Of a stretch of DNA of 64,000 bases, positions 30,224 through 41,311 are shown piece by piece. The notes under the pieces are model-generated. The model was not told the DNA's origin. It ran no database searches and saw only the letters and a list, made by a program, of their open reading frames with translations. The translations under genes were made by a program, and so were the position numbers. Every line of letters starts with the position of its first letter. Position 1 is the stretch's first letter. The DNA is from Cellvibrio sp. 79 (GTDB lineage Bacteria > Pseudomonadota > Gammaproteobacteria > Pseudomonadales > Cellvibrionaceae), in NCBI GenBank assembly GCA_003056245.1, contig MVDH01000001.1:739679-803678 (forward strand), written 5' to 3'.

Positions 30224-31588
30224 TTATTTAATATCGCAAGCTGCCGCCGCCACGCCATTTTGCTTGAATAGTGCCCATTCCTGCATCGCGATTTGCATTT
30301 GCAGTGACGTGTCCATATTCATCGCATCGGGATAGTTGCCACCGGTGTAGCCTTGCGGGAATTGAATGGTTTGGAAATATTCGACGTTGTCCTGGCTGTA
30401 TTGCGTGCAAAGACCTTCAAATCCAAACACGGGTGGACCATAAGTTCCTTCGGAGAACGTGTAGCCGGCGGTATTGGCAAACGCGCCGCCATGGCAAGAG
30501 AGGCATGAGCTGAGTTTATTATCTACCGGGCCGGCAAGGCGGCCATTGCAACCGTAATGTTCAAAAGCGCTAATGGATTTATTCAACACACTTTGACGCG
30601 CGGGAATTGATTCTGCTTTGGGAACGGCGGGGAACGTCCAGGAATCCATGCCCCATTGCAAACCAACGGGTTTTAAATTGTCCCATACGGTTTTGCCTTT
30701 GCCGTCAATATAAGCAAAGGTGCCGTAAACCCAGCGGCTGGGTGAGCGTTCATCGACAACGGCAACATCGACTTGCACGAGGCGAACGGTTTGTACTTCG
30801 CGTTTGCATTGGAATTTATTATCGACTTCAACATGGCGATCGGCCTGCCATTCCGGGCTGCCTTTTAAATAGGAAACTTCTTCCGGGGTTGCGGTGGTAA
30901 ATAAAAATTTCACTACCACTGTACCTTGCATAAACGGCATGCCTTTCGTAGCTTTAACTCCGTTGATGGTTTCAATATTGGGCGTGCCTTTTTTGCTCCA
31001 GCTTTGGCCAATGGTATAACCGCCATAGCTGTTGTACATACCGACAGCCCAGGTTTCAAAACCTTGTTCATTGCCCGGTGTTGCACCGATGAGTGAATGC
31101 AAACCCAATCGCTCTTCGCCATAAAAATCGGTGATAACGGCGGTGCGCTCATTTGTTAAACCATGCACAAATTCGCGCCCGGTGTGTTTATCGAATGCCA
31201 TCCAGGGAATATGGAACCATTCGGTTTTGCCGTTCACTTGTACTTTAAATCCTTCCTGATTATTTAAATCAGGAGTCTGGCCCTTTTTTACATAATCGAG
31301 AATTGCATTGATGTAATTATCGTAAACACCTCCGTCTTTCCACACTGGAATTCCGGCATCGGTAAAATTTGTTTTAGTGGGCAAATCAATTCCCAACCAG
31401 GGACATTCAGCAACGCCACAGGGCTCTGGTTTTTTTTGCGGATAATCATGGCTTAATTTAAATGTTGGCCCTTGCCAACTTGCCGGAGCAGGCACCGCTG
31501 CGTTGCGATAGGCTTCGGTTTTAGCACTTTCTGCAAGTGCGCCACTGGCTGCAATACTGCAGACAATGGCAAAGATTGCTCGTTTCAT
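30224..31588 (-). CDS. Exported single-heme c-type cytochrome-like protein of unknown family
   Basis: A 454-residue periplasmic protein with signal peptide MKRAIFAIVCSIAASGALA. It has one covalent heme motif, CLSCH, near residue 363, and about eight other Cys. The upstream 340 residues do not look like a standard cytochrome domain (ECPWLGIDLPTKTNFTDAG, VTSYL-type segments, many Trp). This may be a substrate-facing or catalytic domain fused to a heme module, but I do not recognise it. It follows the nucleoside hydrolase gene by 62 bases on the same strand. An electron-transfer or oxidoreductase role is an inference from the heme motif only. Confidence 0.7.
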   Translation of the reverse strand: MKRAIFAIVCSIAASGALAESAKTEAYRNAAVPAPASWQGPTFKLSHDYPQKKPEPCGVAECPWLGIDLPTKTNFTDAGIPVWKDGGVYDNYINAILDYVKKGQTPDLNNQEGFKVQVNGKTEWFHIPWMAFDKHTGREFVHGLTNERTAVITDFYGEERLGLHSLIGATPGNEQGFETWAVGMYNSYGGYTIGQSWSKKGTPNIETINGVKATKGMPFMQGTVVVKFLFTTATPEEVSYLKGSPEWQADRHVEVDNKFQCKREVQTVRLVQVDVAVVDERSPSRWVYGTFAYIDGKGKTVWDNLKPVGLQWGMDSWTFPAVPKAESIPARQSVLNKSISAFEHYGCNGRLAGPVDNKLSSCLSCHGGAFANTAGYTFSEGTYGPPVFGFEGLCTQYSQDNVEYFQTIQFPQGYTGGNYPDAMNMDTSLQMQIAMQEWALFKQNGVAAAACDIK

Positions 31589-31650: not shown

Positions 31651-32673
31651 CTAGCTGGCAATTACTTCCAGGAACGTGCTGTACACCGCGCTGGCGTTTG
31701 CCGTTAATGCAACATTCACGGCATGGCCATTTTTCTGGTCGACAATGATCATTCCCGATTTATCATTTTCCTCATCGAGCTCTTGTTCAACGCGAATGGA
31801 AAATGATTCGGTGGTGATAAGTTCGGGATTGGTAATTACGCACGCGGCGAGTGGGTCCCAAAAATCCAGATAAGCGCCAATTCCACCTTTGATGGTGCTG
31901 CTCTCTAACACTTCCGTCAGAAAGTTCGCGATGGGATTATTAATTTTTGCCAGCCGTGCAACAAAATCTTTGGTGATAGGAACTTGTGATGTTGCATTCA
32001 ATGCGACCAATGTAATGGGAATTCCGCTGGAAAAAATTTCCTGCGCTCCGCGTACATCGACAAAAATATTCCACTCAGCGACTTTATTGGTGTAGTAAGG
32101 ATAATTTTGCATGGTCGGGAGAATATTTCCTAATGCTCCCGGCGTTACAAATTCCGGCAACAGGTTGCCGCCCATCATCACAATATGTTCCAGATTTTTA
32201 TCCAGTGCTGCTTGTAATTCAGGATCAGTTTTAGCCGAGTCGAACAACCGCCCCCAATTTGAACCCCCACCAATGCACAAGAGTGTGGTTGGTGCATCAC
32301 TGTTAATAAAATAATTGCGCAAAAACAGCTGGGCATCTTCCAATATTGCGGTGGGGTTTTCTCCGGGAAAGTCAGCATCGTAATGTGCGTCGGCTGCGTC
32401 CCTGGCGTCACCAGGAAATGTATTGCTATAAATCATCGGCGCTTTTGCGCCTTTTGCAATGGGAATTGTTAAAGCATCCGGCGTGTTGAGCATTGTCAAC
32501 ATATTGCTGATATTGCGCACACCTGGCGTTAAGTGAACATCACCAGTGCCTGTAACGGTAATGCCGGTCACTTCAATGGCAGGATGCTTGAGTAAATACA
32601 GCATCGCCATGTAATCATCAAAATCTGCATCGGTATCAATTAAAACACGGATTTTGTTTTCATCTTTTTTCAT
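31651..32673 (-). CDS. Inosine-uridine preferring nucleoside hydrolase family protein
   Basis: A 340-residue enzyme of the nucleoside hydrolase (IUNH) family, which cleaves the N-glycosidic bond of ribonucleosides. The calcium-binding aspartate cluster is at the N-terminus (LIDTDADFDDYMAML), a variant of the usual DTDPGxDD. TLLCIGGGSNWGRL, IVMMGGNLLPE and the late DFWDPLAACV aspartate are also present. There is no signal peptide, so it is cytoplasmic. Substrate preference cannot be read from the sequence. Confidence 0.88.
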   Translation of the reverse strand: MKKDENKIRVLIDTDADFDDYMAMLYLLKHPAIEVTGITVTGTGDVHLTPGVRNISNMLTMLNTPDALTIPIAKGAKAPMIYSNTFPGDARDAADAHYDADFPGENPTAILEDAQLFLRNYFINSDAPTTLLCIGGGSNWGRLFDSAKTDPELQAALDKNLEHIVMMGGNLLPEFVTPGALGNILPTMQNYPYYTNKVAEWNIFVDVRGAQEIFSSGIPITLVALNATSQVPITKDFVARLAKINNPIANFLTEVLESSTIKGGIGAYLDFWDPLAACVITNPELITTESFSIRVEQELDEENDKSGMIIVDQKNGHAVNVALTANASAVYSTFLEVIAS

Positions 32674-32943: not shown

Positions 32944-34608
32944 TTAACCTTTAAGCGGTTTGTATTTCATCCGCTGTGGTTGGGCATTTTGGCCTTTGCG
33001 CTTGATCAGGTCTTCGTGGTAGTCGGTGTAGTTACCTTCAAAGAACACGATATCCGAATCACCTTCATACGCGAGGATATGCGTTGCAATACGGTCAAGG
33101 AACCAGCGATCATGCGAGATCACCAGCGTGCAGCCGGGGAATGCCAGGATCGCATCTTCCAAGGCGCGCAGGGTTTCGATATCCAGGTCGTTTGACGGTT
33201 CGTCGAGTAACAATACGTTCGCGCCTTGCTTCAATGTATTGGCTAAATGGAAACGGCCGCGCTCACCGCCGGAAAGCTCGCCCACACGTTTTTGTTGATC
33301 GGAACCTTTGAAGTTAAAGCGGCCGATGTAAGAACGTGAAGACACTTCATAGTTACCAATCTTGAGGATATCGGAACCATCCGACACTGCTTCCCACACG
33401 GTTTTGTTGTTGTCGAGGTTATCGCGGCTTTGGTCAACAAAAGCGACTTTAACGGTTTCACCGATTACAACTTCGCCGCTATCGGGTTTTTCCTGCCCGG
33501 CAATCATCCGGAAAAGGGTGGATTTACCTGCGCCGTTACCGCCGATGATTCCCACTACCGCGCCTTTGGGCACAGTGAGGCTCAGGTTATCGATCAACAG
33601 GCGATCGCCGTACGCTTTGGAGACGTTATGGAATTCAATAACCTTATCGCCCAAACGCTCACCCGGCGGAATGTAGATTTCGTTGGTTTCGTTGCGCGCC
33701 TGGAATTCTTGTGATTGCAATTCATCAAAACGCGCCAAACGCGCCTTACTCTTGGCCTGACGGCCTTTGGGGTTTTGGCGAACCCATTCCAGTTCTTGTT
33801 TCAGGGCCTTTTGATGCGCCGCTTCACTGCGTTGTTCTTGCGCTAAACGGGCTTCTTTCTGCTCCAGCCAACTGGAGTAGTTACCTTCGTATGGGATGCC
33901 GTGGCCACGGTCCAATTCCAGAATCCAGCTAGCGGCATTATCCAGGAAGTAACGATCGTGGGTGATCGCCACGACGGTGCCGGTAAATTTTTGCAGGAAC
34001 TGCTCCAGCCAGAAAACGGATTCCGCGTCCAAATGGTTGGTCGGTTCGTCGAGCAACAACATGTCCGGGCGTGAGAGCAGCAAACGGCAAAGAGCCACGC
34101 GGCGTTTTTCACCACCGGAAAGTTTGGTTACATCGGCATCCCACGGCGGTAAACGCAGTGCATCGGCTGCTACTTCCAGGGTGTGATCCAGGTTATGGGC
34201 ATCCCACGCCTGGATGATGTCCTCGCACAATGCTTGTTTTTTGGCGAGATCATCAAAATCCGCATCGGCTTCCGCGTAAGCTGCGTAAATACGATCCAGC
34301 TCCGCCAGCGCATCAACGGCTTCACGTACGCCATCTTCCACATTGCCACGCACGTCTTTGGCGGGGTCGAGTTGCGGTTCTTGCGGCAAATAACCTACTT
34401 TGATGCCGGGCATCGGGCGGGCTTCGCCGTTAAAGTCCTGGTCTACGCCGGCCATAATTTTGAGCAGGGTAGATTTACCGGAACCGTTCAGACCCAATAC
34501 ACCAATCTTGGCGCCGGGGAAAAAGGACAGGGAAATATCTTTCAGGATTTCGCGCTTGGGCGGCACTATTTTGCCCAAGCGGTGCATGGTGTATACGTAT
34601 TGAGCCAT
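32944..34608 (-). CDS. ettA: ABC-F translational throttle protein EttA
   Basis: A 554-residue cytoplasmic ATPase that binds the ribosomal E site and gates entry into elongation according to energy state. Two ABC domains: Walker A GLNGSGKSTLLK and GGNGAGKSTLFR; signatures LSGGEKRRVALC and LSGGERGRFHLA; Walker B LLLDEPTNHLD and LLLDEPSNDLD. A linker with the arm typical of EttA lies between them. Start 34608 (MAQYVYTMHRLGK) gives the length of E. coli EttA; the frame to 34656 is not needed. Monocistronic, with its own terminator. Confidence 0.96.
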   Translation of the reverse strand: MAQYVYTMHRLGKIVPPKREILKDISLSFFPGAKIGVLGLNGSGKSTLLKIMAGVDQDFNGEARPMPGIKVGYLPQEPQLDPAKDVRGNVEDGVREAVDALAELDRIYAAYAEADADFDDLAKKQALCEDIIQAWDAHNLDHTLEVAADALRLPPWDADVTKLSGGEKRRVALCRLLLSRPDMLLLDEPTNHLDAESVFWLEQFLQKFTGTVVAITHDRYFLDNAASWILELDRGHGIPYEGNYSSWLEQKEARLAQEQRSEAAHQKALKQELEWVRQNPKGRQAKSKARLARFDELQSQEFQARNETNEIYIPPGERLGDKVIEFHNVSKAYGDRLLIDNLSLTVPKGAVVGIIGGNGAGKSTLFRMIAGQEKPDSGEVVIGETVKVAFVDQSRDNLDNNKTVWEAVSDGSDILKIGNYEVSSRSYIGRFNFKGSDQQKRVGELSGGERGRFHLANTLKQGANVLLLDEPSNDLDIETLRALEDAILAFPGCTLVISHDRWFLDRIATHILAYEGDSDIVFFEGNYTDYHEDLIKRKGQNAQPQRMKYKPLKG

Positions 34609-34863
34609 GGGGCTTAACCTCGCGGTGTGACGATTGTGTGAACATAAAATCGCCAATATCAGGGAATAAATTTCGCGGGCGTACTATAAAGAAAGCCTTG
34701 CAGTAGTGAAAGCCGGATTGGGCCTGGAGGATAAAATCATTTGGTAAATTGCCCGGATTATCTCGCACGTTGTTGTTATAAGTCCCTGCAAGATTATTCG
34801 TCATCTGGCTAAACATTCGCCCCCTTTTAAAGAAATAGGGGGCGACGCGCGGAAACGGTATGG

Positions 34864-36618
34864 CTACTCTGCATTATTGACCTCTCTTAGGGTGAATGCT
34901 TCATCGGCTCGGAGCGAGCCGGATTGCAATGGCGATGGCTGGAGCGGTTGTTGCGATTTTTTTGGGGGAGCAGAAACAAAAAATGTTGCAGTGACTTTCC
35001 CTCCGGTTGAGTTCCTTTCGGCCAGACTCTGAAATGAAGAAATACTGTTTATTATTTCCATTCCTTTAGTGGATAAGGTGTCGGCGGTAAAGATATTTCT
35101 GGAAAGCAAAGGATTTGTGAAAATTTGGGTGATGGCGTCATAAGAGATCATATGTATCAACAGATCACCAAATAATTTTCCATCATTTGCTTCTTGCGCG
35201 AATAAACCAGGAAGAAATTCCAGCGCATTAATGTCACCGTTGTAAATCCTGGATAGTGCTCCAGTTAAATTTTTATCGTTGGACAGCTCTTCGAAACCCG
35301 TTAATCTTTTAAGTTGAAATTGCTCCCGATAATCATTGTAGGAGCGCAGTCTGAAATCCCTCGCCATTTTCAAACTGAATTCCTCCGCTTGCCAGAGAAA
35401 CGCCGGAGTGTTTTGTAAGCCGATTTTGCCTGCTGGTTGACTGGAGAGATCTGTTATCACGCTATCCAAACCTTGTTGTTCAAACAGGGCATTGTTAAAG
35501 CGATAATCCCATGTCGATGAATTATTAAAGGTAATGGTATCTGGCACCATGCTGTGCCAGCGATAAAGCAGGTTAAATTCAACCGCTATCCAGTTCGGGC
35601 GATACCAGGATTGCGTTTCGGAAAAACTGCAATCCAGTTTGAAATTGGATCTGCCGGAAATGTGATTAATGTATTCTTCCAATGTTAATTTCAACAATAT
35701 CGCGATATTAATGAGTCGTGCGGTTTGAAATATCCGTTCATTAAAATAGTCTGGATCACTGGCATTCCATGCGGGATCGTACTGATAGGCGGTAACCAGT
35801 TCATCGCAAATTTTATTGTGTTGTCGTAAAAATAATGTGGTATACGCAATATAGCCGACAGAAGAGTTACCGTTTTCCAGACCCGTTACATAAAGATCTT
35901 TTTTGCGTTCGGCGCCGTTTGAGATTTTGCTTAGGAAATTATCCTGTGCGGTGATGAACTCCGTTAATTCTTCATACTCTTTTTTTACCATTAAATTTCC
36001 CTGGGCGTCGGTGGTGTACAATAAATCGGGATATTCCTCACCGCCGATCTTGCGTGCCTTTAGTTTTCCAGAACCGGGTTGGCGTAATTTTCTTGTGACA
36101 CTTTCAGTCAACCCGTAAATCTGGCAAAGATCAACCTCGTGATTTGAAGTGTTTTTGCGCCGGTCAGTCATGTCGGTGCGTAGAACACTATCGGTAAGCC
36201 ATTGCGCAAAAAACATAAAAAACAAACTATTTCTATCGGTTTTTGGTTCGACATCTACCGGGAGTTTGAATAATTCGGCTAACGCTTTTATTTCAGGTAA
36301 TTGCCTGGCGCCTGTGCTTGGCGCTATATGGCGACTATAAAATTTTTTGTTGGTGAGCGAATGCCAGGAAGTGTAATCACTAATCAGGCCGTTAGCTGAT
36401 GGGGCGGGTTGCATTGTATCGTGGTGCCATAAGCTAAATCGTCTCGGTCTGGGATCTGTTAGTGTAGCCAGGCGGTTAATTACAAATCGATTAATGTATT
36501 TGCCCAGCACCGGAGTGTTCCAGGCTAAAAGCAGTGCGTGTGTACTTACCCATTTTTTCACTGTAGCGATAACGGGGGTAGATTCAATAATGTGTTGTAT
36601 CTTCCTGAATAGACTCAT
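34864..36618 (-). CDS. Cyclooxygenase-like animal heme peroxidase/dioxygenase
   Basis: A 584-residue protein of the animal heme peroxidase superfamily, closest in pattern to prostaglandin H synthases and bacterial fatty-acid dioxygenases. Landmark matches to COX occur in order: SWHSLTNKKFYSRHIAP (COX SWEAFSNLSYYTR), FFAQ, VDLCQIYG, LRQHNKICDEL, IFQTARLINI, EFNLLYRWHSMVPD (COX EFNxLYHWHPLxPD). Tyr352 and His355 match COX Tyr385 (oxygenase radical) and His388 (proximal heme ligand). The distal pair is altered: Gln139 is kept, but Asp143 stands where COX has His207. No EGF domain and no signal peptide; the N-terminal amphipathic region may bind membrane. Divergent from two LuxR-type genes. It probably oxygenates unsaturated fatty acids; unproven. 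Confidence 0.85.
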   Translation of the reverse strand: MSLFRKIQHIIESTPVIATVKKWVSTHALLLAWNTPVLGKYINRFVINRLATLTDPRPRRFSLWHHDTMQPAPSANGLISDYTSWHSLTNKKFYSRHIAPSTGARQLPEIKALAELFKLPVDVEPKTDRNSLFFMFFAQWLTDSVLRTDMTDRRKNTSNHEVDLCQIYGLTESVTRKLRQPGSGKLKARKIGGEEYPDLLYTTDAQGNLMVKKEYEELTEFITAQDNFLSKISNGAERKKDLYVTGLENGNSSVGYIAYTTLFLRQHNKICDELVTAYQYDPAWNASDPDYFNERIFQTARLINIAILLKLTLEEYINHISGRSNFKLDCSFSETQSWYRPNWIAVEFNLLYRWHSMVPDTITFNNSSTWDYRFNNALFEQQGLDSVITDLSSQPAGKIGLQNTPAFLWQAEEFSLKMARDFRLRSYNDYREQFQLKRLTGFEELSNDKNLTGALSRIYNGDINALEFLPGLFAQEANDGKLFGDLLIHMISYDAITQIFTNPLLSRNIFTADTLSTKGMEIINSISSFQSLAERNSTGGKVTATFFVSAPPKKSQQPLQPSPLQSGSLRADEAFTLREVNNAE

Positions 36619-36891: not shown

Positions 36892-38076
36892 ATGACTAGA
36901 TTTCAATTGGGCGAAAAAGAAAACCAGCTATTGCATAGTATTTATGCCGCTGCTTTAGCTCCGGAAAAATGGCGATCCGTGATTGAAACAATAATGATTC
37001 AGATTGGCTCTGACAGCGCACAATTGATTTTTTATGACTCGAAACATCCCGGCCGAAATCTGGCTGAAAACATACAAATTGATGTCCTGGGGCCGGAATT
37101 ACCAGGCTCTTTTAAAATGGATATTAATGAAATCAAAGAGTTATTTGGTGGTTGGAAGGAAGGGGCAGTAATTTGTTCGCAACCTGTTCCCTCGTATGCC
37201 GGTGGAAAAAATCCTTGTGATAACGCCCTGAATTCCTCGGGTCCTTATGCCGTTATTCCCCTTATAAATAGTTCTCATGTCGCGTCTATGCTGGGGTTTT
37301 ATTCAATTAATCAGCAATGTTGTTTATCCGCGGAAGCATTACAATTTTTACATCGGCTAGCGCCGCACTTTTCCAAAGCATTACATATTTATAATCAGGT
37401 TAGTGCTGTTAAAAATTCAAATCTATCGTTGGTTGAATCATTGAAATGTTCCCAATTGGGAATAATGTTATTAGACGATCATTTGCATGTTATCTATGCC
37501 ACAGAAGAAGCCAGGCGAATTCTTGAGAAGAATCCGGCACTTCATATTAATTGTTATGAACAATTGGAAATAAAAGATAGCAGGCAACAAATATATCTGG
37601 ATGAACAGCTGCAAAAATTATTGGCAATGACTGATGTCCCCTCGCAATCGCAAGAGTTCAACATGCCTCTGCGCGTACCGGAAAAAGTGCACCCGTTAAA
37701 ACTAACAGCTGTCTCGCTGGATAAGCGGGAGTATGTAAGTAGTAATAAGGTGCGGATCGCTATTTTTTTAAATGACCCTGATCGGATACGATTTCTCCCT
37801 TTGGATTATTTGCAGCAGGCGTTTGCATTGACGCGAACGGAAGGCGCCATCGCCCAAATGCTATTGGGTGGGGACACGATCAATGAAATAGCTGGAAAAA
37901 GACGCACATCTGTGGAGACCGCTCGCTGGCAGCTTAAATCAATTTTGCATAAAACCAACACTGGTAATCAGGCTGAGTTAACCCGGTTGCTTATGTTAAT
38001 AAGCCATGATGTTGCCAGTAATCCTTTGCTAATTGACCAACCTGTTATTCATACCACCCATTTGGGTGATGATTGA
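36892..38076 (+). CDS. LuxR-type transcriptional regulator (first of tandem pair)
   Basis: A 394-residue protein with a C-terminal LuxR/FixJ helix-turn-helix (about 330-390): FALTRTEGAIAQMLLGGDTINEIA, then SVETARWQLKSILHKT. The first 160 residues form a GAF-like sensing region with no recognised ligand pocket, followed by a PAS-like stretch (GIMLLDDHLHVIYATEEARRIL). There is no receiver or acyl-homoserine-lactone domain. It is paralogous to the next gene over its full length. Start ATG 36892 has only a weak ribosome site. Divergence from the COX-like gene suggests it controls that gene. Confidence 0.82.
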   Translation: MTRFQLGEKENQLLHSIYAAALAPEKWRSVIETIMIQIGSDSAQLIFYDSKHPGRNLAENIQIDVLGPELPGSFKMDINEIKELFGGWKEGAVICSQPVPSYAGGKNPCDNALNSSGPYAVIPLINSSHVASMLGFYSINQQCCLSAEALQFLHRLAPHFSKALHIYNQVSAVKNSNLSLVESLKCSQLGIMLLDDHLHVIYATEEARRILEKNPALHINCYEQLEIKDSRQQIYLDEQLQKLLAMTDVPSQSQEFNMPLRVPEKVHPLKLTAVSLDKREYVSSNKVRIAIFLNDPDRIRFLPLDYLQQAFALTRTEGAIAQMLLGGDTINEIAGKRRTSVETARWQLKSILHKTNTGNQAELTRLLMLISHDVASNPLLIDQPVIHTTHLGDD

Positions 38077-38131: not shown

Positions 38132-39295
38132 ATGCTTGATTACGAATTGGGTGATTACGAGAGCCAGCTCATTAGCCGGATTTATGAAGCTGCCCTGACT
38201 CCGGAATTATGGAGTGAGGTGTTGCAGTCGATAACCAATGTTTGCGGCGCCCATCAAAGCACATTGTTTTTTTATGATGCGCAATGCAGGGCAAGAAATT
38301 TTGCTGTTGCAGATAAAACACGCCGCGAGATTATCGAAAAATACCTGTGTGAATTTATTGATATTGAAGCCGCACGGATGCATTTGCAGCTATCCCGTTT
38401 AAAAGAGGGCGAAGTAGCAACTCCAGCTGATTTATTGCGTGTTACTGGAGGTAGTTATGAAGATTTGGTGGGGGCTGAATATATGGAAAAGCTCATGCCC
38501 CAATTGCAATTTTGTGCGGGTATTATTCTTCTTCATGACAATATGACTTGTTCCGGGATGGGACTCAGGCGATTCACTCCGCCTTATGAATTGGAAGATT
38601 CTGCGATAGATTTTTTGCGCCGTATTACTCCGCACCTCGTGCAAGCAATAAAAATTCATAATCACCTGAGCGAGGTCAAACAGGTAAATCAAGCGATTAA
38701 AGAAGTCTTACAGCGAATTAATCAAGGCGTTTTTTTATTGGATCATAATTTGCGTGTGATTTTTTCCAATCCGGAGGCTGCACGCATTTTGGAATCACGT
38801 GCTGTATTGGAAATTGGCAGACAGGGAAAGCTATACCTGACTGGTGAAAAAGAAAACCGGCAATTGCAGTCGGTATTTCAAAGTTTGATCCAGCCTGCGC
38901 AAGGGATGGTTCGCCAGGTGAAAAAAGCGATTTCAATGGCGACGGGGGCAAGCTGCCAATCGAAGCCTTTAAAATTAACTATTTCCCTGGTCGATACCCA
39001 AACCAACAATGAGCTCAATAAAGAAGGTATCGCGATTGCTGTATTTGTCACAGATCCCGAGCGCCCTGGTAGTTTGTCTGATACTTATATGCAGCAAGCC
39101 TATGCACTCACACCCACTGAGTGCAGCATTATGAAAACGTTACTAAAGAATAAAAATATTGGGGACATCGCTGAAATGCGCGGTACAACCCTGGAAACCG
39201 CACGTAGCCAGCTCAAGTTGATCTTGCAAAAAACAGGTACTCATTCGCAGGTCGAGCTATCCCGGTTATTGATCGCGCTAAATAATGATGTTTAG
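38132..39295 (+). CDS. LuxR-type transcriptional regulator (second of tandem pair)
   Basis: A 387-residue paralogue of the preceding gene, with the same layout: MLDYELGDYESQLISRIYEAALTPELW matches the start of its neighbour, then a GAF-like region, a PAS-like GVFLLDHNLRVIFSNPEAARIL, and a C-terminal HTH (YALTPTECSIMKTLLKNKNIGDIA, TTLETARSQLKLILQKTGTHSQ). ATG 38132 has AAGGA at about 8 bases, giving a 55-base gap after the first gene; the pair is probably one operon from a tandem duplication. Confidence 0.83.
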   Translation: MLDYELGDYESQLISRIYEAALTPELWSEVLQSITNVCGAHQSTLFFYDAQCRARNFAVADKTRREIIEKYLCEFIDIEAARMHLQLSRLKEGEVATPADLLRVTGGSYEDLVGAEYMEKLMPQLQFCAGIILLHDNMTCSGMGLRRFTPPYELEDSAIDFLRRITPHLVQAIKIHNHLSEVKQVNQAIKEVLQRINQGVFLLDHNLRVIFSNPEAARILESRAVLEIGRQGKLYLTGEKENRQLQSVFQSLIQPAQGMVRQVKKAISMATGASCQSKPLKLTISLVDTQTNNELNKEGIAIAVFVTDPERPGSLSDTYMQQAYALTPTECSIMKTLLKNKNIGDIAEMRGTTLETARSQLKLILQKTGTHSQVELSRLLIALNNDV

Positions 39296-39463: not shown

Positions 39464-39577
39464 TCAATTATAACAACCTGATCGATAATCCAGATCAATA
39501 CTCCGGGCAATTGGAAGCCATCTGCAAAGCAGGTGAGTGAGAGCTATTACAACGAATTTTTAATGAGTGGTACCAGC

Positions 39578-41311
39578 ATGGATAAAGAGCGTATTCTGCA
39601 AGAGCTTAACCAGGGCGTTAAGTCCTGGAACCTATGGCGTAAACGCAGCGCTGTAGGTGAAATAAACCTGGACGGCATTGAGCTAACCGGTGTTAACCTG
39701 GATGAATACGACTTATCCAAAGTATCGCTCCGCAATTCGCATATCACCCATTGCAGTTTTAAAGGCGCAGACTTGATCCAAACCAATTTGCAATATTCGT
39801 TCTTGCAAAAAAATGATTTTAGTCATGCCAAATTAATCGCCGCTAATTTATGCAACACTGATTTGAGCGGTTCGATTTTATTTATGACCAATATGCTGAC
39901 AGCGAACACCCGCAATGCGCGGTTGGAAAATATTGATTTTCGCGGTCATGATATTAGCGGTTTGATGTTGCGCGATGTATCGCTTGCAGGCAGTAATCTT
40001 GAGGGGCAGCAATTAGCGCGTGTGGATTTATCCAATTCCGATCTGGAAGGTGTCAATTTACAAGGTGCAGATTTAGCCGGCACTCTATTTAACAATGCCA
40101 ACCTTACTAATGCCGATGTGCGTGGTGCAAATCTGGTCGGTGCTTTATTTAAAGCGGCAAATCTGAGCGGTATGGATTTGAGTAACCTCGATCTGACCAA
40201 AACCGATTTCACCGGCGCCAATCTTTCCCATTGCGATTTACACTCAACTAATCTCAGCAAAGCAAAACTGATCGGTGCAAATATTACCGGCGCAAAATTG
40301 TGGAAAGTGGTAACGACAGGCTGGAGTATTGCCAGTATTGAGTGTAACTATGCTTATTGGGACAAATCAGGTAAGGAAAAAACGCTTTATCGGAGCCATG
40401 AATTTGAGCGTATTTTTGCAGAAGCAATCACTATTGAATTGCGTTATCCCTATCGCCTGGTCGACCATGAATTAGCAACCTTGCCGATCTTTATTGAACA
40501 CCTTACGGCGGTGCATTGGGGCACAATTATTCGTTTGAAGTCTATTAGCGATGTGGCGGGTGGGGCGCTGGTAAAATTTGTAGTAGAGGAGGTGGGTGTA
40601 CATAACCCCACGGAATTGAAAACCCAATTGCAAGCTGAAGCAGAGCGCATCCAGCTGGCCCAGCTAATGTTGCGCACTAACACGCATTTGCATACACAAT
40701 TGAAAGAAAAAATTGGTGCGATTCGCGAAGAGTTCTGGCCGCGCCTGTTGGAATTGGCGGTAGATCATGAAAAAGATCAGGTGCGCAACCTCACCATTTT
40801 ATTTATGGATTTGAAAGGTTTTTCCAAATGGTCGGCGGATGAGCTTTCCGAGAAACTTTCTCTATTTCGTGGCCTGATAAAACCCATCCTGAAAAAATTT
40901 GCTGCTGGCCATCCCAATATGGAAGGCGATTCCCTGCGCGTTACCTTTAAAAATGCCTCTGCCGGTGTTTCCTGCGCGTGCATGATTCGCAATGTGTTGC
41001 GCGCTGCCGGTTTTGAATTGCGTATTGGTATGGAGTTGGGTGAAGTTGCCGTTGTGCATAACGAAGTGACAGATATCCCTGATCTTGAAGGTGTCGCGGT
41101 GAGTATGGCTGCGCGGATGGAAGCGGCAGCCGAACCGGGCGAGGTGCTGGTAAGCCATAAGGTCCGCCACTATGCGCAACGCAGCGACTTGTTTCAATTT
41201 ACGCCGCGTCGCGTACCGTTAAAAAAAGCAATAGGTACTATTGAACAAGGTGATTACATCGAATGTTTTGCAGTAGAAGCCACTAAAAATTTACAAGATG
41301 CATTCGCTTAA
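39578..41311 (+). CDS. Pentapeptide-repeat protein fused to a class III nucleotidyl cyclase domain
   Basis: A 577-residue cytoplasmic protein. Residues from about 25 to 230 are pentapeptide repeats of A(D/N)LxX form (GADLIQTNLQYSFL, LEGVNLQGADLAGTLFNNAN), a right-handed quadrilateral beta-helix. A mixed linker (about 250-400) is followed by a class III cyclase domain (about 405-565): LFMDLKGFSKW with the first metal Asp, and MEGDSLRVTF with the second Asp, then GMELGEVAVVHNEVTDIPD. Both metal ligands are kept, so cAMP or cGMP synthesis is possible. The start is uncertain: GTG 39533 and ATG 39563 are in-frame alternatives; none has a strong ribosome site. Single gene with a downstream hairpin. 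Confidence 0.82.
   Translation: MDKERILQELNQGVKSWNLWRKRSAVGEINLDGIELTGVNLDEYDLSKVSLRNSHITHCSFKGADLIQTNLQYSFLQKNDFSHAKLIAANLCNTDLSGSILFMTNMLTANTRNARLENIDFRGHDISGLMLRDVSLAGSNLEGQQLARVDLSNSDLEGVNLQGADLAGTLFNNANLTNADVRGANLVGALFKAANLSGMDLSNLDLTKTDFTGANLSHCDLHSTNLSKAKLIGANITGAKLWKVVTTGWSIASIECNYAYWDKSGKEKTLYRSHEFERIFAEAITIELRYPYRLVDHELATLPIFIEHLTAVHWGTIIRLKSISDVAGGALVKFVVEEVGVHNPTELKTQLQAEAERIQLAQLMLRTNTHLHTQLKEKIGAIREEFWPRLLELAVDHEKDQVRNLTILFMDLKGFSKWSADELSEKLSLFRGLIKPILKKFAAGHPNMEGDSLRVTFKNASAGVSCACMIRNVLRAAGFELRIGMELGEVAVVHNEVTDIPDLEGVAVSMAARMEAAAEPGEVLVSHKVRHYAQRSDLFQFTPRRVPLKKAIGTIEQGDYIECFAVEATKNLQDAFA

Follow-up and report, generated by a model that had tools for sequence, protein, structure and literature searches.

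A cyclooxygenase-like heme dioxygenase with a distal aspartate and a changed pocket floor in Cellvibrio, an additional member of the bacterial 10S-DOX-like family

Introduction

In the standard numbering of cyclooxygenase (COX), the target of aspirin, the catalytic tyrosine is Tyr385, the proximal heme ligand is His388, and Gln203 and His207 lie on the distal heme helix. In the window, by which we mean the whole stretch of 64,000 nucleotides of Cellvibrio sp. 79 that was analysed, an earlier note had recognised a COX-like enzyme in which an aspartate takes the place of this distal histidine; it described the distal site as altered, suggested that the oxygenase chemistry may remain with the peroxidase chemistry lost or changed, and reasoned that the product would then be a fatty-acid hydroperoxide and not an alcohol. 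The locus raises the question of what kind of enzyme is encoded, whether the aspartate sets it apart from its relatives, and how much this residue can tell us about the product.

Results

A cyclooxygenase-like gene product

The gene lies at 34864..36618 on the reverse strand, as an open reading frame with an ATG start and no internal stops that encodes 584 residues. The only family found by the Pfam scan is An_peroxidase (PF03098, E 1.2e-37), the NCBIfam scan assigned no family, and the nearest chains among the PDB sequences are those of COX-2, with an E-value of 2.3e-56 for the single sequence as query and of 3.9e-106 for a profile of 75 sequences. An AlphaFold2 model, calculated from an alignment of the window protein with 74 of the 80 genome_contigs proteins, reached a mean pLDDT of 89.8 and a pTM of 0.90 (with pLDDT below 50 at residues 555-584), and Foldseek returned COX-2 as its top match (E 1.6e-33, TM 0.74/0.78, rmsd 4.6, 567 columns), with COX-1 next and then alpha-dioxygenase and peroxidases. 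The unbroken frame, the Pfam domain, the COX-2 matches and the Foldseek search agree on the bacterial COX-like enzyme that had been proposed, and the model, too, has the COX fold. So close a resemblance to COX greatly exceeds what chance would produce, and the protein is an additional member of the bacterial 10S-DOX-like family of heme fatty-acid dioxygenases, a kind of enzyme already known.

Residues around heme and substrate

Alignment with COX placed the residues expected of such an enzyme. The distal heme helix carries Gln139-Trp140-Leu141-Thr142-Asp143 (36190..36204, on the reverse strand like all residues of this protein), and Tyr352-Arg-Trp-His355 (YRWH; 35554..35565) supplies the catalytic tyrosine and the proximal heme ligand. 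Tyr316 (35671..35673) corresponds to COX Tyr348, an equivalence taken from Table 2 of PMC13049297; the terminal substrate motif DA..Q described in the same article appears as Asp494-Ala495-Ile-Thr-Gln498 (35125..35139), with its alanine at the position of COX Ser530. Around the distal residue, FFAQWLTDSVLRTD lies over FFAQHFTHQFFKTD of COX-2 with no gaps, in the pairwise as well as in the profile alignment, and Gln139 falls on Gln203, Trp140 on His204 and Asp143 on His207, while Leu141 takes the position of Phe205, the phenylalanine of the COX motif printed as F205-t-h-q-F in PMC13049297. Since the alignment is gapless here, a frameshift or a misplaced distal residue is ruled out, and by both alignments it is Asp143, and no other residue, that occupies the distal-histidine position. 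All four residues singled out by the earlier note (Gln139, Asp143, Tyr352 and His355) were found in the translated frame, as were its four COX-like motifs (at residues 162, 347, 296 and 264).

The distal aspartate among relatives

To place the aspartate among relatives, we aligned 85 distinct proteins, namely the open reading frames scoring at least 300 bits with the A1 profile, with the window protein included and six identical pairs collapsed; 19 of 110 matches, which scored lower (other heme peroxidases, fragments), were left out. The aligned bacterial COX-like dioxygenases come from Pseudomonadota, Cyanobacteria, Actinomycetota and others, and the genome_contigs records with relatives include Nitrosomonas, Nitrosospira, Synechococcus, Chroococcus, Rhodococcus and Frankia as well as Mycolicibacterium, Mesorhizobium, Ruegeria, Wenyingzhuangia and Exilibacterium. 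Gln139, Trp140, Asp143, Tyr316, Tyr352, Arg353 and Trp354 are each present in 85/85 proteins and His355 in 84/85; the DA of the terminal motif is found in 83 rows, the other two being gaps, and the last position of that motif holds Gln in 67 rows, His in 16 and a gap in two. Both QWFTD and YRWH recur in all 30 cyanobacterial loci listed, and QWFTD in nine of nine viral-contig loci. Within this sample, whose genome_contigs part comprises 80 of 98 relatives found with the patterns F[MP]FFAQW and NH[NE][IV]DL[CA]Q, a scan that favours Trp140, does not require Asp143 and would miss remote COX-like families whose distal residue is a different one, the distal aspartate is the rule among bacterial COX-like dioxygenases. 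An aspartate peculiar to the window gene is ruled out by the 85 aligned proteins and the cyanobacterial loci, and what had been taken for an unusual, altered site turns out to be the customary one of these relatives.

By genome, the dioxygenase search gave a match of any kind at E 0.001 in 18 of the 144 genomes of the window's family, where, beyond the window's own genome, four hold a full-length close relative and one (G016) a fragment. At the level of the order, 6 of 390 genomes match at E 1e-20, with its own and G016 counted; at that of the class, 2 of 369 match, its own counted; and the cyanobacterial order that was searched gave 40 of 291. Two observations on individual loci may be recorded here. 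A second copy in one Pseudomonadales genome (L026/L050) has serine at the position of the proximal ligand (YRWS) together with the distal aspartate and the catalytic tyrosine, and is the sole row of the 85 that lacks the proximal histidine. At five other loci (L108, L114, L123, L047 and L059) the stop-to-stop dioxygenase frames of 921-1060 codons are longer than most, and may include extra fused domains.

The Nostoc enzyme and a cyanobacterial orthologue

A precedent for an enzyme of this type is the linoleate 10S-dioxygenase of Nostoc punctiforme (NpDOX or 10S-DOX, UniProt B2J5P4; Brash et al. 2014 as cited in PMC13049297 and PMC9579011). It has 542 residues, Tyr342 as the catalytic residue, F143-t-d-s-F in place of the corresponding COX motif and Asp486-Ala487..Gln490 as the terminal motif, and it converts oleate and linoleate to 10S-hydroperoxides, accepting 20:2n-6 at a reduced rate (PMC13049297); it has also been employed for preparing 10-HPODE (PMC9579011). 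A genome of the order to which Chroococcus belongs holds a locus (L125, or L147 with wider flanks) whose product, likewise of 542 residues, has 17 of the 17 Nostoc landmarks taken from PMC13049297, Tyr342 among them, against 10 of 17 for the runner-up locus. One more residue differs from the printed terminal motif (IPP for IPA), as is to be expected of an orthologue. Judged by these landmarks it is a cyanobacterial orthologue of 10S-DOX. Over 528 aligned columns the window protein and this orthologue share 36% identity, and both have QW-x-TD, YRWH, the central tyrosine and DA..Q. In the passages searched, the literature gave no account of a Nitrosomonas COX-like enzyme, and the first 300,000 of 522,781 characters of a Chem. 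Rev. article make no mention of Nostoc.

In the wider locus (L147, 4688-8678), genes for a Tle1-like phospholipase, the dioxygenase and a catalase-related protein stand in a row, the latter two corresponding to the tandem reported for Nostoc. The three are found together in four of the ten cyanobacterial loci fetched (L147, L148, L150 and L151), and such loci could possibly constitute a pathway that releases, oxygenates and cleaves. We treated the tandem catalase-related hydroperoxide lyase as an accessory trait of Nostoc and not as a defining one. With the catalase-related protein of L147 as query, 103 loci were compared. Matches near the dioxygenase turned up in seven of the ten wide-flank cyanobacterial loci, the query's own included, and in 16 of 80 genome_contigs loci, where identities were 25-29%, several matches were partial and the flank was short at some loci; the nine viral loci and the four wide-flank loci of kin, L157-L160, gave none. 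Searched as genomes, the query's own (G1162) was the one positive of eight, and neither the window's genome (G000) nor six kin genomes holding the dioxygenase gave a match. As far as this search extends, we reject a catalase-related partner gene for the lineage of the window, so the hydroperoxide would be either the end product or handled by genes elsewhere.

The pocket floor and the position in the family

What marks out the window protein individually is its changed pocket floor, more than the aspartate. Where the motif of its relatives is Q-W-F-T-D it reads Q-W-L-T-D, and Leu141 is unique among the 85 rows, the other 84 having Phe at this position; Val145, at the position of COX Phe209, is shared with a minority, Val being found in 13 of the 85 and Phe in 68. 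As placed by the alignment, both floor residues thus differ from the usual ones, which makes substrate and position uncertain. The phylogeny adds to this: in a tree of 121 rows, made by a quick method and rooted at the midpoint, the window protein groups with the copy of its congener G027 (97), within a clade of proteobacterial, some cyanobacterial (Synechococcus, Chroococcus, Aphanothece) and phage proteins that is separate from the Nostoc-type clade and from that of Nitrosomonas europaea, and several forks near it have support below 95. Position and stereochemistry therefore need not be inherited from the Nostoc type. One could thus speculate that the enzyme is a dioxygenase acting at another position or on another substrate, forming for instance an 8-, 9- or 11-hydroperoxide or using another chain length. 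The two floor residues, the 36% identity to the 10S-DOX orthologue and the separate clade all point this way, and we take the idea seriously, but Tyr316 at the centre and DA..Q at the terminal end of the pocket are as in 10S-DOX, and on balance we do not expect it to hold.

The alignment column that we take to be COX Val291 holds Ile in the window protein and Arg in none of the 85 rows; in the preceding column Arg is found in 71 of the 85, and the window protein has Lys. For DOXs, a conserved Arg at the Val291 position is described (PMC13049297); it finds no clear place in our alignment, a point against the 10S-DOX-like reading.

A variable cassette with two regulators

Divergent from the dioxygenase are two genes on the forward strand for LuxR-like proteins, the first at 36892..38076 and the second at 38132..39295, with its start set by relatives in a frame that opens at 38033. 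The GerE matches score 18.1 and 16.4 bits against a cut-off of 23.5, and a PAS match in the second protein is likewise below the Pfam cut-off, so that the designation LuxR-like is a weak assignment. Outside this group, Pfam and the comparison with congeners identify conserved flanks, on the left an ABC-F-like ATPase (32944..34656, reverse strand) and on the right a pentapeptide-repeat/cyclase-like protein (39533..41311, forward strand).

Comparison within the genus, for which gene lists came from a simple longest-ORF script with approximate starts, shows how variable the site is. G027 has the dioxygenase and then the two divergent LuxR-like genes between the same ABC-F and pentapeptide/cyclase genes, with one added Sir2-like gene; the dioxygenases are 51% identical and the regulators 36% and 62%, against 81-97% for five neighbours and 59% over 85 aa for a sixth that is truncated at the edge of the fetched sequence. 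In G016 the two regulators are still there (63% and 77%), with the dioxygenase reduced to a fragment. The cassette is absent from G029 (97% complete, 7% contamination), where the ABC-F gene (99.5%) and the pentapeptide gene (97%) stand about 0.7 kb apart, and it is missing between the two flanks in G020; G014 has unrelated genes at this place, and in G022 the ABC-F gene does not adjoin the pentapeptide gene. A search with regulator 2 matched 8 of 21 genomes of the genus, of which only G000, G016 and G027 gave strong matches, at 63% or more; G019 and G025 hold a more distant pair (34-36% to regulator 2) that adjoins other genes. Being present, reduced or absent at one site among congeners, the dioxygenase and the LuxR-like pair behave as a gain/loss cassette, which has diverged further than most of the genes beside it. 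Variation in the region is not confined to the cassette, since G027 lacks at the corresponding place two genes that in the window lie to its left (30224-31588 and 31651-32673). The first of these, on the reverse strand, encodes a 454-aa protein with an N-terminus that by eye resembles a signal peptide, and has no Pfam or NCBIfam match.

The LuxR-like pair may control the dioxygenase or sense its product. A bolder version, in which the hydroperoxide made by the enzyme, or an oxylipin derived from it, is bound by one or both regulators, which then control the cassette and other genes, the whole being a mobile unit that inserts, is lost and diverges at a single chromosomal site, strikes us as rather doubtful; if true, the cassette would be a small self-contained signalling module around a COX-type enzyme.

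The same comparisons bear on whether an active enzyme is still made. The end branch of the window protein measures 0.73 in the quick tree, against a median of 0.12, and this together with the fragment in G016 means that selection may be relaxed; since G029 and G020 also lack the gene at the corresponding place, one could picture a dioxygenase decaying in the genus. Against this stand an open frame of 584 codons with the catalytic residues intact and the fact that the protein departs from just three columns that are at least 95% conserved, fewer than seven other rows do, and we regard decay as improbable.

Copies on phage contigs

Nine tailed-phage contigs of IMG/VR carry a COX-like dioxygenase (L138-L146, which are L193-L201 with different flanks; examples are L193:10001-11689 and L200:10001-11680). 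They are 46-48% identical to the window protein, and all eight uncut copies have YRWH. Two genome types were examined, one (L193) with genes for portal, head maturation protease, major head and tape-measure proteins, the other (L143/L200) with genes for major head protein, endolysin, thymidylate kinase and DNA methyltransferase; in both, a small ORF with no PHROG match, coiled-coil-like by eye, precedes the dioxygenase. The dN/dS of 0.10-0.16 between non-identical copies indicates purifying selection. The phage copy L139 has 72-73% identity with the Synechococcus copies L032 and L033. A search of 50,697 phage records for the phage dioxygenase gave no match, and the literature matches listed include no report of a phage-borne COX-like dioxygenase.

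Discussion

Considered as a whole, the evidence makes it likely that the window encodes a 10S-DOX-like heme dioxygenase that works through a radical on Tyr352, releases a hydroperoxide, probably has a weak peroxidase and sits in a cassette with its possible regulators. In such an enzyme the heme, with His355 as its proximal ligand, would be oxidised by peroxide and give rise to the radical on Tyr352, which would abstract an allylic hydrogen of a Delta9-unsaturated fatty acid; O2 would add perhaps at C-10, by analogy only, and the fatty-acid hydroperoxide would be released. With Asp143 in the distal position, the reducing half of the peroxidase would probably be weak and peroxide activation retained, and the two divergent LuxR-like genes may control the dioxygenase within their small cassette.

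By analogy, the window dioxygenase is probably a hydroperoxide producer, and to this extent homology and the Nostoc precedent (PMC13049297) bear out the earlier note. Its reason for expecting a hydroperoxide lacks such backing: Coprinopsis CcDOX1 is reported to retain the distal histidine, His-217, and also forms a 10(S)-hydroperoxide (PMC9579011), so the aspartate as cause of this product is unsupported. The suggestion that peroxidase chemistry is lost or changed divides in two, for a weak reducing half is probable and a complete loss of peroxide chemistry unlikely, because the tyrosyl radical needs a peroxide-oxidised heme, by which it arises in COX and, by analogy, in 8R-DOX (PMC13049297). 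The same article notes that there is little information on the peroxidase activity of DOXs, and its section 6 says that the distal position differs among COX, 8R-DOX or 10S-DOX.

Two further readings concern the class of the enzyme. That it is mainly a peroxidase or a hydroperoxide-metabolising enzyme might be read from the name of its Pfam domain, animal heme peroxidase, but the protein lacks the distal histidine and retains the oxygenase tyrosine together with COX-like elements of the substrate site, and lactoperoxidase and myeloperoxidase match it far less well than COX does, which leaves this very improbable. That it is a true cyclooxygenase making prostaglandin-like endoperoxides from C20 acids is scarcely credible, even though COX is the nearest solved structure and bacterial COX-like enzymes have been suggested in a review as contributors to PGE2 synthesis (PMC11941309), given YRWH instead of YHWH, the missing distal histidine, Ala for Ser530, a Pfam scan at E 0.001 without an EGF-like family, and a Nostoc relative that uses oleate and linoleate and handles 20:2n-6 more slowly (PMC13049297).

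For the 10S-DOX-like dioxygenase that we favour, the reading of the distal site is thus corrected. Since the aspartate is the rule in the bacterial relatives aligned here, the activation of COX-type enzymes that have no distal histidine is a question for the whole family and no longer a one-gene curiosity, and the homologues, the cyanobacterial loci with phospholipase-like and catalase-related genes, the regulator cassette and the phage-borne copies offer material on which it can be tested.

Comparison with known systems

Plant alpha-dioxygenase belongs to the same superfamily as the window protein, but as a match it is much weaker than COX-2 (E 2.2e-9 against 2.3e-56; TM 0.61 against 0.74). 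The fungal linoleate DOX domains (8R-, 9- and 10R-DOX, CcDOX1) are likewise heme dioxygenases that make hydroperoxides, yet they are fused to a P450-related domain, which the single-domain window protein of 584 aa is without, and they have a distal histidine (His-217 in CcDOX1, PMC9579011; in 8R-DOX according to section 9 of PMC13049297, from which section 6 differs). With mammalian COX-1 and COX-2 the protein shares the fold and the equivalents of Tyr385, His388, Gln203 and Tyr348, and it differs from them in the distal aspartate for His207, in YRWH, in Ala495 at the Ser530 column and in having no EGF-like family. From Nostoc 10S-DOX it is set apart by an identity of only 36%, measured on the orthologue L125/L147 and not on B2J5P4, by its clade, by Leu and Val in place of both floor phenylalanines, and by an arrangement in which the window's genome has no match to the catalase-related partner; it resembles this enzyme, as described in PMC13049297, in its domain, the distal aspartate of F-t-d-s-F, the Tyr348 equivalent and DA..Q, and, as seen in the orthologue L125, in YRWH.
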